Origin: Coriobacteriia bacterium
GTDB lineage: Bacteria; Actinomycetota; Coriobacteriia; Coriobacteriales; Atopobiaceae
NCBI GenBank assembly: GCA_030530145.1
Contig: JAUMVN010000005.1
Coordinates: 1-64,000, forward strand
Length of the DNA: 64,000 nt
Direction of reading: 5' to 3'
Shown here: positions 13,231-63,544 of the stretch, piece by piece
How the letters are laid out: every line of letters starts with the position of its first letter
How positions within the stretch are numbered: the stretch's first letter is position 1
The notes under the pieces: generated by a model
What the model was told of the DNA's origin: nothing
Seen by the model: only the letters and a program-made list of their open reading frames with translations
The model's database searches: none
Position numbers and translations under genes: made by a program

Positions 13231-13271
13231 GGCGCCGGGGCCTCCACACCCGGCGCCAATCCCCCCCCCCC
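13231..13271. other. Hairpin and 11-C homopolymer before IIA
   Basis: The gap between IID and IIA (13184-13350) contains a hairpin with arms GGCGCCGGG and CCCGGCGCC (13231-13257) and then an uninterrupted run of 11 C at 13261-13271. Such tracts slip during replication, and the hairpin may modulate read-through to IIA. No T-run follows, so it is not a classic terminator. Confidence 0.6.
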
Positions 13272-59006: not shown

Positions 59007-59208
59007 CCCACCACCTGGAGCGCTTCAAAGCTCGATTTCGCACCACCTCGAGCCGCTGCGCAATAGCGATCTCTCCTAACCCAGCAGCCCCTCTTTGAAA
59101 GCAATCTGTAAATTCCAGCCGTTCAGCTGGCTGGAAGGGTAGTGCGGACTTGCCGGGGGAGTAGACTCTTCCTTATCTGTATTGGCTGCAGATAGGAAAG
59201 AGGTTGGT

Positions 59209-61004
59209 ATGCAGCTTAGAGAGAAATTGCTCGGGGGGGGGTTGCTCTCGTAGCTGCGCTGACGCTCGCGTTGCCCGTGAGCGCTCTGGCCGCTGAGGTC
59301 GCCAAGATCGGCGACACGTCGTATGAGACGCTTGACGCGGCCGTTGAGGCCGTGGCCTCCGATCAGCAGATCGAGCTCGTGGACGACGCCGAGCTCACTG
59401 TGGGCTATATCAAGAAGCCGGTGACCATCAACGGCGCTGGGCACGTGGTCTCGGTCCCGAACCAGGGCAACACTGGCGACGGCGATGGCCGGCTCGAGAT
59501 CCATTCCGTGCTCACCTTCAACAATGCTACGGTGAAGTTCGACAACGCCAAAGGCTGGAGCCTGGTTATGTCGAAGGAGGGCGTGCTCAACCTTAACCAG
59601 GGCGCCGACTGTTCCTTCACGAACAACGGTATTTACATGTACAACGGCGCGACCATCAACGCGGATGCGTCGAAGCTGACGGTTGACCACTGCAAGTACA
59701 CCGGCATCATGGGCGAGAAGTACGGTTTGGTCAACGCCACCAACGGCTCGCTGCTCACCATTACGAACAATTCCAGGGGCGACGGCGTCGCCAACGGCGT
59801 TGCGAGCGTGAAGCTTTCCGTCCAGGATTCCGAGCTCGTCGTCGATGGCAACGAGAACCAGGGCCTGGTCAGGGCTCCCCTGAGCCTGAGCAACTCCACG
59901 GCCTCCATTTCTGGCAACGATATCGGCATCACGGGGTATTCTGGCACCGATGTCCTCGTTATGGAGAAGGGCTCCAAGCTCACGGTGGCCGACAATAAGG
60001 GCGCCGGTATTTTCCTGTGGGGCGGCAAGGTTGACGTGCAGTCTGGTTGCGAGCTCTCCATTACCGGTACGGGTAAGAACTCGAGCTACACCCGCTTCGA
60101 TTCCGACAACGCCGACTACTACGGTGCGCTCGTCACGAACGGCAAAACCCCTGAGCGCGGCACGGTTACCTTTGCGGACGGAGCCGACGTTACCATCACG
60201 AACAACCCGCTCGGCGGCATCAACAATAAGGAGACCGTCAGCCTCGGCAACAACACCGTCGTTACCAACAACGGCGGCGAGCGTGTGCCCAACGGCGGCG
60301 GCATCTCCAACAACGGCGGCGTCATCACCGTTGCAAAGGGCGCGCAGGTCTATAACAACCATGCCGAGGACGCGGGCGACGACGTCGCCAACCTCAACGG
60401 CGGCTCCCTGACCCTGGCCGCGACGGGCTCCGGCTGGCAGCTCGACGACTGCGACCACGCCATCACCGGCTGGTTCGACGACGCCTCCGACGCCCGTTGG
60501 AACGCTCACGACAAGGACGCGGACGTCCACGTCGACGAGGTCGCCGCTGCCGCCTTCACCGACGACGTCTACCTCAAGGCGGCCCACGGCCTCGCGACGG
60601 TGGACTACAAGTGGGTCTCGACCGAGAACCCCTCCGGCGTGAACCCGCCTGCCGCCGACGAGAACCTCGAGTTCGGCTCCGCCTACACCGCCAAGGCCCA
60701 GGACAAGGCTGCCGGCTGGACCTTCGACGGCTGGTACGTCGACGAGGCCTGCACGACCAAGTGGAACGATGGTGCCGCGCTTCCCGGCAGCATGACGCTC
60801 TACGGCAAGTGGACCAAGAACGTTGACCCGACTCCGGCCCCGAACCCTGACCCGACGCCGAAGACGCCCGAACAGACGGCTTCGAAGGTCGCGAAGAAGG
60901 CCGTGCCGAAGACCGGCGACCCCGCCTCCGTCGCGTGCATCGCTGCGGCGGCGATTGCGGGCGGCTCCGCGCTTCTCGCCGCAAAGAAGATGCGCCGCAA
61001 GTAA
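59209..61004 (+). CDS. Sortase-anchored beta-helix surface protein, out of frame at a poly-G tract
   Basis: As sequenced, the ATG at 59209 (GAAAGAGG six bases upstream) runs into TAG at 59251 because the tract at 59233-59241 has nine G. With ten G the frame joins a signal peptide (GGGVALVAALTLALPVSALAAE) to the long downstream frame, giving 598 residues. The body has repeated Asn/Gly-rich short strands like a right-handed beta-helix (polymorphic outer membrane/pectate-lyase type). A Listeria-Bacteroides-like repeat (TFDGWYVDEACTTKW...LYGKWTK), a Pro-rich spacer and the sortase signal VPKTGD with membrane helix and RRK tail follow. It is probably an adhesin in the off state; assembly error is the alternative. 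Confidence 0.88.
59233..59241 (+). other. Poly-G slippage tract in the signal-peptide coding region
   Basis: Nine consecutive G eight codons after the start codon. A change of one base (to ten, or loss of two) restores the signal peptide and whole protein, which is the standard design of contingency loci. Confidence 0.85.
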
Positions 61005-61065: not shown

Positions 61066-61105
61066 TTACACTTAGGGGCGTTGAATCTGCGAAGAAGGAA
61101 TGCCC

Positions 61106-63544
61106 ATGATCGTCCTTGCCCTCGACACCTCGACCGATATGCTCGCCTGCGCCGTTGGGCGCATGGACGGCGGCTCGGTCGAGGTTCTTTCTTGCCGTGA
61201 CCACATGTGCCGGCGCCAGGCCAACGTCGAGCTCGTCTCCACGTGCAAAGAAGCGCTGGCCGCCGCCGGCCTTTCCATGGCCGACGTCGATGCGGTGCTC
61301 GTGGGCCGCGGCCCCGGTTCCTTCACGGGCGTGCGCATCGGCATCGCGACGGCCAAGGGCCTGGCTTGCGGCGCGGGTCTGCCCCTCTTCGGCATCTCGG
61401 CGCTCGACGCGATGGCCTGGTCGGCCCATGCGGCCGGTGCGCGCGGGACGCTCGCCGTCATGGGCGACGCCATGCGCGGCGAGGTCTATCCGGGCATCTA
61501 CCAGCTGGACGACGCCGGCGCGCACCGTACCTTCGCGGCCGAGACGGTCGTCAAGGCCGACGCCGCGGTTGCCGACCTCGCGGCCCGCTCGGACGTCGCC
61601 GAGCTCACGCTTTCCGGAAACGGCCTGGTCAAGTACCGTGCGCGCTTCGAGGCGGCGGGCTTCTTGCCCGAGCACGTGGCGGTCGAGGACGCCTGGTGGC
61701 CCACGGGCGAGGGGCTTCTTCGCGCCGCGGCCGAGGCCGACGTGTTCCATGCGGCGCCTGCTGGCGGCGCGCTCGGCGACCCAGCGCTCGTGCTGCCCAT
61801 CTACACGCGCCTCTCCGACGCCGAGGAGAGCGAGCGCACGCGCCTCGGCCTCAAGAAGCCCGCGACCGTCGAGCTCACCGGCTGTGACGACGCCCTCGCC
61901 GGCATCCACTCGCAGCTGCGTCCCATGACGGTCAACGACGTCCACGCCGTGGCCGAGCTCGAGGCCGAGGTCTTTGCCGGCGCGAACCACGAGCCGTGGT
62001 CTGAGCAGGTCTTCTACGACGACGTGACCACACACAACCATGTATGGTGGGTCGCGCACGACCGCGGCCAGATCATCGGCTACGCGGGCGGTACGGTCGT
62101 GGCCGACGAGCTGCAGGTGGCCAATGTTGCCGTGGCAGCCGGCCGCCGCCGCGAGGGCATCGCGGCGCGCCTGCTCTCGCGCGTGGCCTACGACGCGCAG
62201 ATGCTCAACGCCACGTGGTCGACGCTCGAGGTCGAGGTCGGCAACGGCGCTGCGGAGAAGCTCTACGAAAAGCTTGGCTACACCGAGGCTGGCGTGCGCC
62301 CCAACTACTACGGCGCTGGCCACGACGCGCGCATCATGCGCGTTGACCTGCCGCTCGTTGACGTCTCGCCCGACGCGGCCCGCGACCCGGCGCCGCGCGC
62401 GTCCATCCGCCCGTGGCCCATCGAGGCCGCTCCGCGCGACGACGAGGCCCGCGCCGCCATCGCCGACGCCGGCCCGCTGATCCTCTCCATCGAGTCCTCC
62501 TGCGACGAGACGGCCATGGCCGTGACCGACTCGCATGGCGTCGTGTGCGCGAGCGTCGTGGCCACCCAGATAGACTTCCACGCGCGCTTCGGCGGCGTCG
62601 TGCCCGAGATCGCGAGCCGCAAGCACACCGAGGCCATCGTCGGCGTCTTCGAGGAGACGCTCGCCAAGGCGGGCACCCACTTCGGCGTGGACACCCTGAC
62701 GCCTGCCGACCTCGCCGCCGTCGGCGTGACCGCGGGCCCGGGCCTTGTGGGCGCGCTCGTGGTTGGCGTTGCCTTCGCCAAGGGCCTCTGCACTGCCGCT
62801 GACCTGCCGCTTATTGCCGTGCACCACCTCGAGGGACACCTGATGGCCAACCTCTTCGAGACCCCGGGCCTCGAGCCGCCGTTCGTGGCGAGCCTTGTCT
62901 CGGGTGGCAACACAATGCTCGTGCACGTGCGTGCGTGGGGCGATTACGAGGTGCTCGGCCAGACCATCGACGACGCGGTGGGGGAGGCCTTCGACAAGGT
63001 GGCCAAGGCGCTCGGCCTGGGCTACCCCGGCGGCCCCGTGATCAGCAAGCTCGCGGCCAAGGGCAACAAGAAGGCCATCCACTTCCCGCGCGCGATGATG
63101 CACTCGGGCGACTACAGCTTTAGCTTGAGCGGCCTCAAGACCGCGGTCATCACCTATATCGAGGGCGAGAACCGCGCCGGCCGGCCCATCAACCTGCCCG
63201 ACCTCGCGGCCAGCTTCGAGGCCGCGGTCGTGGATGTGCAGGTGGCCAAGGCCCGGACGGCCGTCGAGCAGACCGGCGTCTCCGACATCTGCATCGGCGG
63301 CGGCGTGGCCGCGAACCCGGAGCTCCGCGGCGCGTACCAGAAGGTTTTCGGCAAGATGGGCGTCCGCGTGACCGTGCCGCCCATGCGCGCCTGCGGCGAC
63401 AACGCTGCGATGATCGGTATCCCTGCGCTGCGCAGCTACCTTGCGGGCAACTTCGCGCCGCTCACCCTGGACGCCGCGCCGAACGCGCCCCTCGGCACCT
63501 GGTCCACGCCCGACGCCCCGGTGCCGCCCACCTGGGAACGCTAA
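61106..63544 (+). CDS. TsaB-RimI-TsaD triple fusion protein
   Basis: 812 residues with three enzymes in one chain. Residues 1-~235: TsaB (LALDTSTDMLACAV, GRGPGSFTGVRIG). ~271-415: GNAT acetyltransferase RimI (ELQVANVAVAAGRRREGIAARLL; LEVEVGNGAAEKLYEKLGY). ~458-812: TsaD (SIESSCDETAMAV; metal-binding His574 and His578 in HHLEGH; SGGNTML; CGDNAAM). TsaB and TsaD make the t6A modification with TsaE, and RimI acetylates ribosomal protein S18. The ATG at 61106 suits AAGGAA at 61095-61100 better than the one at 61100. The three are usually separate adjacent genes. Confidence 0.95.
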   Translation: MIVLALDTSTDMLACAVGRMDGGSVEVLSCRDHMCRRQANVELVSTCKEALAAAGLSMADVDAVLVGRGPGSFTGVRIGIATAKGLACGAGLPLFGISALDAMAWSAHAAGARGTLAVMGDAMRGEVYPGIYQLDDAGAHRTFAAETVVKADAAVADLAARSDVAELTLSGNGLVKYRARFEAAGFLPEHVAVEDAWWPTGEGLLRAAAEADVFHAAPAGGALGDPALVLPIYTRLSDAEESERTRLGLKKPATVELTGCDDALAGIHSQLRPMTVNDVHAVAELEAEVFAGANHEPWSEQVFYDDVTTHNHVWWVAHDRGQIIGYAGGTVVADELQVANVAVAAGRRREGIAARLLSRVAYDAQMLNATWSTLEVEVGNGAAEKLYEKLGYTEAGVRPNYYGAGHDARIMRVDLPLVDVSPDAARDPAPRASIRPWPIEAAPRDDEARAAIADAGPLILSIESSCDETAMAVTDSHGVVCASVVATQIDFHARFGGVVPEIASRKHTEAIVGVFEETLAKAGTHFGVDTLTPADLAAVGVTAGPGLVGALVVGVAFAKGLCTAADLPLIAVHHLEGHLMANLFETPGLEPPFVASLVSGGNTMLVHVRAWGDYEVLGQTIDDAVGEAFDKVAKALGLGYPGGPVISKLAAKGNKKAIHFPRAMMHSGDYSFSLSGLKTAVITYIEGENRAGRPINLPDLAASFEAAVVDVQVAKARTAVEQTGVSDICIGGGVAANPELRGAYQKVFGKMGVRVTVPPMRACGDNAAMIGIPALRSYLAGNFAPLTLDAAPNAPLGTWSTPDAPVPPTWER

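Follow-up and report, generated by a model that had tools for sequence, protein, structure and literature searches.

The gene considered here lies on the plus strand at positions 59209–61004 of the window, the 64 kb stretch of DNA that was analysed. From its ATG the recorded reading frame passes through eight codons, enters a run of nine G residues that makes up codons 9–11, and soon reaches a TAG codon, as the original prediction of an early stop at this run had described. A second frame, displaced by one base from that of the ATG, is free of stops from before the tract to 61004, a length of 577 codons. The features of the locus, all on the plus strand, are as follows.

59166–59203, plus strand: predicted RNA hairpin in the 5' leader, pairing most of the ribosome-binding site (from folding)
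59195–59203, plus strand: ribosome-binding site GGAAAGAGG, 5 nt upstream of the ATG (from the sequence)
59209–59253, plus strand: stub reading frame of the recorded state, MQLREKLLGGGLLS followed by the stop TAG at 59251–59253 (from the sequence)
59233–59241, plus strand: run of nine G within the signal-peptide n-region, presumed to act as the slippage switch (from the sequence and run counts)
59241–59294, plus strand: remainder of the signal peptide in the shifted frame, with its hydrophobic core and cleavage region, VALVAALTLALPVSALAA (read from the sequence; layout as in tract-less homologues)
59295–60656, plus strand: repetitive beta-rich body, possibly a parallel beta-helix (AlphaFold model; weak PDB matches)
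60657–60809, plus strand: one copy of the Listeria-Bacteroides repeat domain PF09479 (Pfam, 28.3 bits against a cut-off of 27)
60903–60920, plus strand: sortase sorting motif VPKTGD, then a hydrophobic stretch and the basic tail KKMRRK (from the sequence)

GC content at the three codon positions of the shifted frame is 0.58, 0.46 and 0.87, a coding-type pattern that resembles the neighbouring genes, and the other two frames over the same stretch contain 10 and 14 stops. The first non-ATG start codons of the shifted frame after the tract, TTG at 59271 and GTG at 59277, both fall within the signal peptide, and the sequence has no ribosome-binding site before either of them. The locus combines what is found at slipped-strand phase-variable genes: a homopolymer placed where a change in length shifts the frame, an intact frame on both sides of the repeat, a start codon with its ribosome-binding site and a complete anchor. 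The adjacent segment at 61100–63544, read from the sequence, holds TsaB, RimI and TsaD apparently fused in one frame of 814 residues.

The site from which translation would begin appears conventional. A pattern search found GGAAAGANG at 2–10 nt before an ATG 42 times in the genome, versus 4 times for the reversed pattern, and we therefore take GGAAAGANG to be the ordinary ribosome-binding site of this organism. The leader hairpin folds with −19.4 kcal/mol and a z-score of −2.7 when cut out as a 56-nt piece; because other cut-outs give z-scores of −1.0 to −1.2, we regard it as suggestive. A regulatory leader RNA was considered and rejected, since Rfam gave no meaningful match and GGAAAGANG is an ordinary ribosome-binding site. 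The leaders of two other genes of this genome, on contigs C30 and C51 (L012 and L019), are each predicted to form two hairpins, the first with GGCUC..UUUAAGGG.GCC, directly 5' of GGAAAGAAGGU and the start codon.

The product of the shifted frame would be a secreted protein anchored to the cell wall. The VPKTGD sortase signal that had been predicted at its end is borne out by the motif, hydrophobic stretch and basic tail read in the sequence, and together with the one sortase encoded in the genome (C26:141139; PF04203, 38.9 bits) these are the elements of an LPXTG-type sortase-anchored protein; the match to the Gram_pos_anchor profile is weak, at 13.7 bits against a cut-off of 20. The N-terminal signal peptide, judged by eye and hydropathy as were signal peptides throughout this work, spans the tract but is out of frame in the record. 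The beta-helix that had been proposed for the body is plausible at the level of the model. AlphaFold, run from two sequences, gives many short strands with a mean pLDDT of 57, reaching 70–90 in parts of residues 10–270. Many of the top Foldseek matches in the PDB are beta-helix proteins, including antigen 43, PL6 lyases and the adhesin PfbA, but none is significant (E 0.04 or worse), and the comparison lends this part of the proposal weak support. A sequence search against solved structures returned a weak match limited to the tail region. That the protein serves as an adhesin is a guess.

We considered how far a tract of this length departs from chance. Base composition alone does not mark it as special, because a dinucleotide shuffle of the window, a model that overpredicts long runs, expects a mean of 4.3 eight-G words where 6 are seen, which is not unusual. 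The distribution of run lengths is more telling. Runs of 4, 5, 6, 7 and 8 number 369, 64, 4, 0 and 0 in the window, which also contains one run of 9 and one of 11, and extrapolation predicts, for each 64 kb, about 0.005–0.07 runs of length 9 (or of at least 9). Across the genome, a 57-contig draft for which our statistics are based on pattern searches and sequence stretches, runs of exactly 8 and 9 number 10 and 11, respectively, and three are longer, a single run of 10 and two of 11; runs of 9 are thus as frequent as runs of 8, versus about five times fewer expected, so that the distribution has a shoulder at 9 in place of a steep fall. An eleven-C run at 13261–13271 of the window lies between PTS IID-like and PTS IIA-like genes and could tune expression.

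Five of the 14 G/C runs of at least 9 in the genome fall within, or immediately after, the segment encoding the signal peptide of a large secreted protein. On the assumption that 1.3–5% of the genome consists of 5' ends of secreted-protein genes, the probability of finding at least five of 14 there is about 7e-7 to 4e-4. Three of the five genes are in frame and two, the window gene among them, are out of frame. The other four, with two further interrupted genes at shorter runs, are:

C30, in frame (ON): MKKSKFSL-GGG-RASFAVFAVVFAAIVALALP, with Cna_B and MBG domains and VPKTGD
C51, in frame (ON): MKRILSR-GGG-VFAAALALTFCFG, with VPKTGD
C4, in frame (ON): VWA protein with VPRTGD, tract just past the signal peptide
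C8:33812 (L085), out of frame (OFF): G9 directly after the signal peptide MIGELSTARRCVYAGLAIGASLTFLTASPIPALASVA, then a secreted CotH-domain (CotH-kinase) body of 1161 residues
C2, about 14240 (L081:3241–3247), out of frame (OFF): C7 run right after the signal peptide MLRKKLGCLLATALMVTTTVPVAAFAST, then an LPXTG-like body of 918 residues
C31:51025 (L119), OFF: acyltransferase-like membrane-protein gene of 366 residues, interrupted at a G8 near its 5' end

Several surface genes of one genome thus carry such repeats and are recorded in mixed states, as would be expected of a phase-variable set. On C26, a gene for a large secreted protein contains a C9 that is in frame and lies farther into the coding region, and the remaining long runs fall between genes, at the ends of contigs, or within or next to other genes. 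One G9 run (C26:181817, L010) is in frame near the start of a kinase-like frame.

The same arrangement recurs among relatives, which we sampled as 140 genomes of the family, one per species, with some of the sites selected by eye. The one further genome of the genus (G001, a second species) encodes a pilin-like LPXTG protein of 1031 residues with VWA and FctA domains that is OFF at a G10 after MTSKVRNV. It also has an acyltransferase-like membrane-protein gene interrupted at a G9 near the 5' end (G001:C1:1409895, L239), and this gene and its counterpart on C31 possibly represent a switched modification of surface glycans. Sites of the form ATGA-N4-34-G9 occur in 57 of the 140 genomes. In an unselected sample of one ATGA-G9 locus per genome, with our own genome excluded and 29 loci usable, a signal-peptide-like segment and a long frame follow the tract in 5 of 29, versus 1 of 40 ATGA-C9 control sites (Fisher one-sided p 0.04). 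The excess is modest and the majority of ATGA-G9 sites are of another type; the single signal-peptide-like control site (L201) may itself be real. Raw enrichment of ATGA-G9 over ATGA-C9 was dropped as evidence, since the two counts are similar and only the association with signal peptides differs.

With the sites picked by eye, the total comes to 13 different genes, including that of G001 and the five from the unselected sample. Six are in frame (L132, L134, L135, L140, L160 and L161) and seven, counting that of G001, are out of frame (L137, L146, L148, L154, L155, L158 and L159); most of the out-of-frame bodies remain open for more than 900 codons. Two of the genes, L135 and L140, are orthologues with 49% identity and have a G9 at the identical place, where no run of at least 7 is present in other members of their protein family. 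Homologues of the window protein are encoded in five family genomes (G001, at 37–38% identity, G058, G113, G038 and G083), and all have usual hydrophobic N-termini with no tract; a search of the 140 genomes for orthologues with other tract lengths found a tract in none. The switch is therefore not ancestral to the window gene. We conclude that tracts are gained and lost from lineage to lineage, at a favoured position. A recurrent site with MNALVSCKNL before a G9, in genus g33, was rejected as a conserved switch, since it leads into a short frame with SPSRSA-type sequence and no signal peptide. This element, in which MNALVSCKNL (L124–L129) or MILLTVEKNV (L130–L131) precedes G9 or G10 and an SPSRSA-like sequence, is found in eight genomes with varying tract length and resembles a repeated element, not a surface gene.

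A random on/off switch is the most likely explanation of the window locus, because its own genome and those of its relatives have the same arrangement in other surface genes, some readable and some not. Judged from sequence, we consider it likely that the window gene is a slipped-strand phase-variable (contingency) locus for a sortase-anchored surface protein, recorded in the OFF state. The core of the earlier proposal to this effect is strengthened by its design, which recurs with the tract in the signal peptide and in both states across the genome and the family, while switching itself is what we infer from that design. We suggest that slipped-strand mispairing during replication would alter the number of G residues in the n-region of the signal peptide. 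In one of the three frames the start codon would be continuous with the signal peptide, the body and the sorting signal, leading to an exported and anchored protein; the other two would yield a short stub and nothing at the surface. The window gene would be one of a set of surface genes in the genome, each switched independently. This scheme supposes that tract length varies often enough to be useful, that the OFF state abolishes export and that mosaic surface display is selected through a benefit from mixed surfaces. Placement in the n-region would be economical, because an out-of-frame length leaves just a short stub, and glycines should be tolerated there. Nine G residues is about the lower end of the tract lengths known to switch quickly.

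The alternative that survives best, although we consider it unlikely, is that the gene is simply broken, with a fixed one-base frameshift in a chance homopolymer, no switch, and a body that will decay. The existence of tract-less homologues and the recorded OFF state are in keeping with such a history, but the 577 codons have acquired no further stop or frameshift and keep normal codon-position GC, and tracts of this length, rare in the genome, are nevertheless concentrated at the 5' ends of surface genes with about half of them in frame. Slightly less probable is an error of reading or assembly, in which case the actual tract would keep the frame and the gene would always be on. Homopolymers are the commonest site of such errors and the genome is a draft; yet in this same assembly the equally long tracts of C30, C51 and C4 leave their genes in frame, so that a uniform shortening of tracts is absent, and interrupted genes are found in many separate assemblies. 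A wrong recorded length would still leave the tract itself a likely switch. Slippage of RNA polymerase or ribosomal frameshifting on the G run, by which an out-of-frame gene would steadily yield a little full-length protein, is very improbable as the whole explanation. Slippage during transcription of homopolymer runs is well established (work cited in PMC9187656), but no frameshift-stimulating element was identified, and the range of lengths and ON and OFF states across genes fits genomic switching, with which such slippage can coexist.

A slipped-strand switch in the genome itself would place the window gene in known company; it works like, and is probably a member of, the slipped-strand phase-variable loci. 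The direct precedents in Actinomycetota include the pilus loci bbr_0113 and bbr_1889 of Bifidobacterium breve UCC2003, where replication slippage was shown by maximum-depth sequencing (Penno et al. 2022, PMC9187656). There too, in a gut commensal of the Actinomycetota, a G-tract parts the frame of the signal sequence from that of an LPXTG body, and the recorded genome is off. The B. breve loci, however, are the first genes of sortase-dependent pilus operons with a dedicated sortase (PMC9187656), whereas here we find a stand-alone surface protein, a tract within the signal-peptide n-region and, in each genome, several genes that are unlinked, with slippage as a proposal from sequence. Gardnerella has many tracts of at least 8, often with LPXTG, Rib or FIVAR surface proteins, and colonies with 9 and 10 bp at one tract (PMC11287997); its tracts are mostly upstream of reading frames, in contrast to those in or just after the signal-peptide coding region described here.

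Cutibacterium (Propionibacterium) acnes, like the present organism a high-GC actinobacterium with surface-protein genes associated with G/C tracts, has 54 variable tracts, 96% of them G/C, and dermatan-sulphate adhesins and surface-protein genes are among those associated with them (PMC4746626). It belongs to a distant lineage in which tract variation follows phylogenetic clades, suggesting slow change (PMC4746626), and the comparison is one of tract design, not of protein homology. A close analogue is the 5' poly(A) tract of inlA in Listeria monocytogenes, where a frameshift near the 5' end of a surface gene leaves a stub of about 8 residues and is reversible at high frequency (PMC2831843), although that tract is poly(A) and lies in another phylum and protein. 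For Eggerthella lenta, a possibly related gut actinobacterium and the only such one for which a phase-variation study came up, the reported switch consists of large inversions in the capsule locus (PMC13174815). The nearest named matches suggest that the present organism belongs to the class Coriobacteriia. A literature search that covered few subscription papers found no report of homopolymer switching in Collinsella, Eggerthella, Adlercreutzia or Olsenella.

The mechanism is thus already known from Bifidobacterium pili, Gardnerella, Cutibacterium and Listeria inlA, and what is apparently new is a multi-gene set in the present lineage. The best-studied cases of slippage-based surface variation come from Gram-negative mucosal pathogens and from Bifidobacterium. 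We lean, by a small margin of confidence, towards the broader proposition that the family runs G-tract switches in signal peptides genome-wide, through which the export of adhesins, pilin-like proteins and perhaps surface-glycan acyltransferases would be independently randomised in each cell. If this is true, slippage-based surface variation would extend to another group of gut Actinomycetota, whose reference genomes would mis-annotate surface proteins as short or missing genes. Clonal cultures would then be mixtures of surfaces, and tract lengths could be traced in existing metagenomes.
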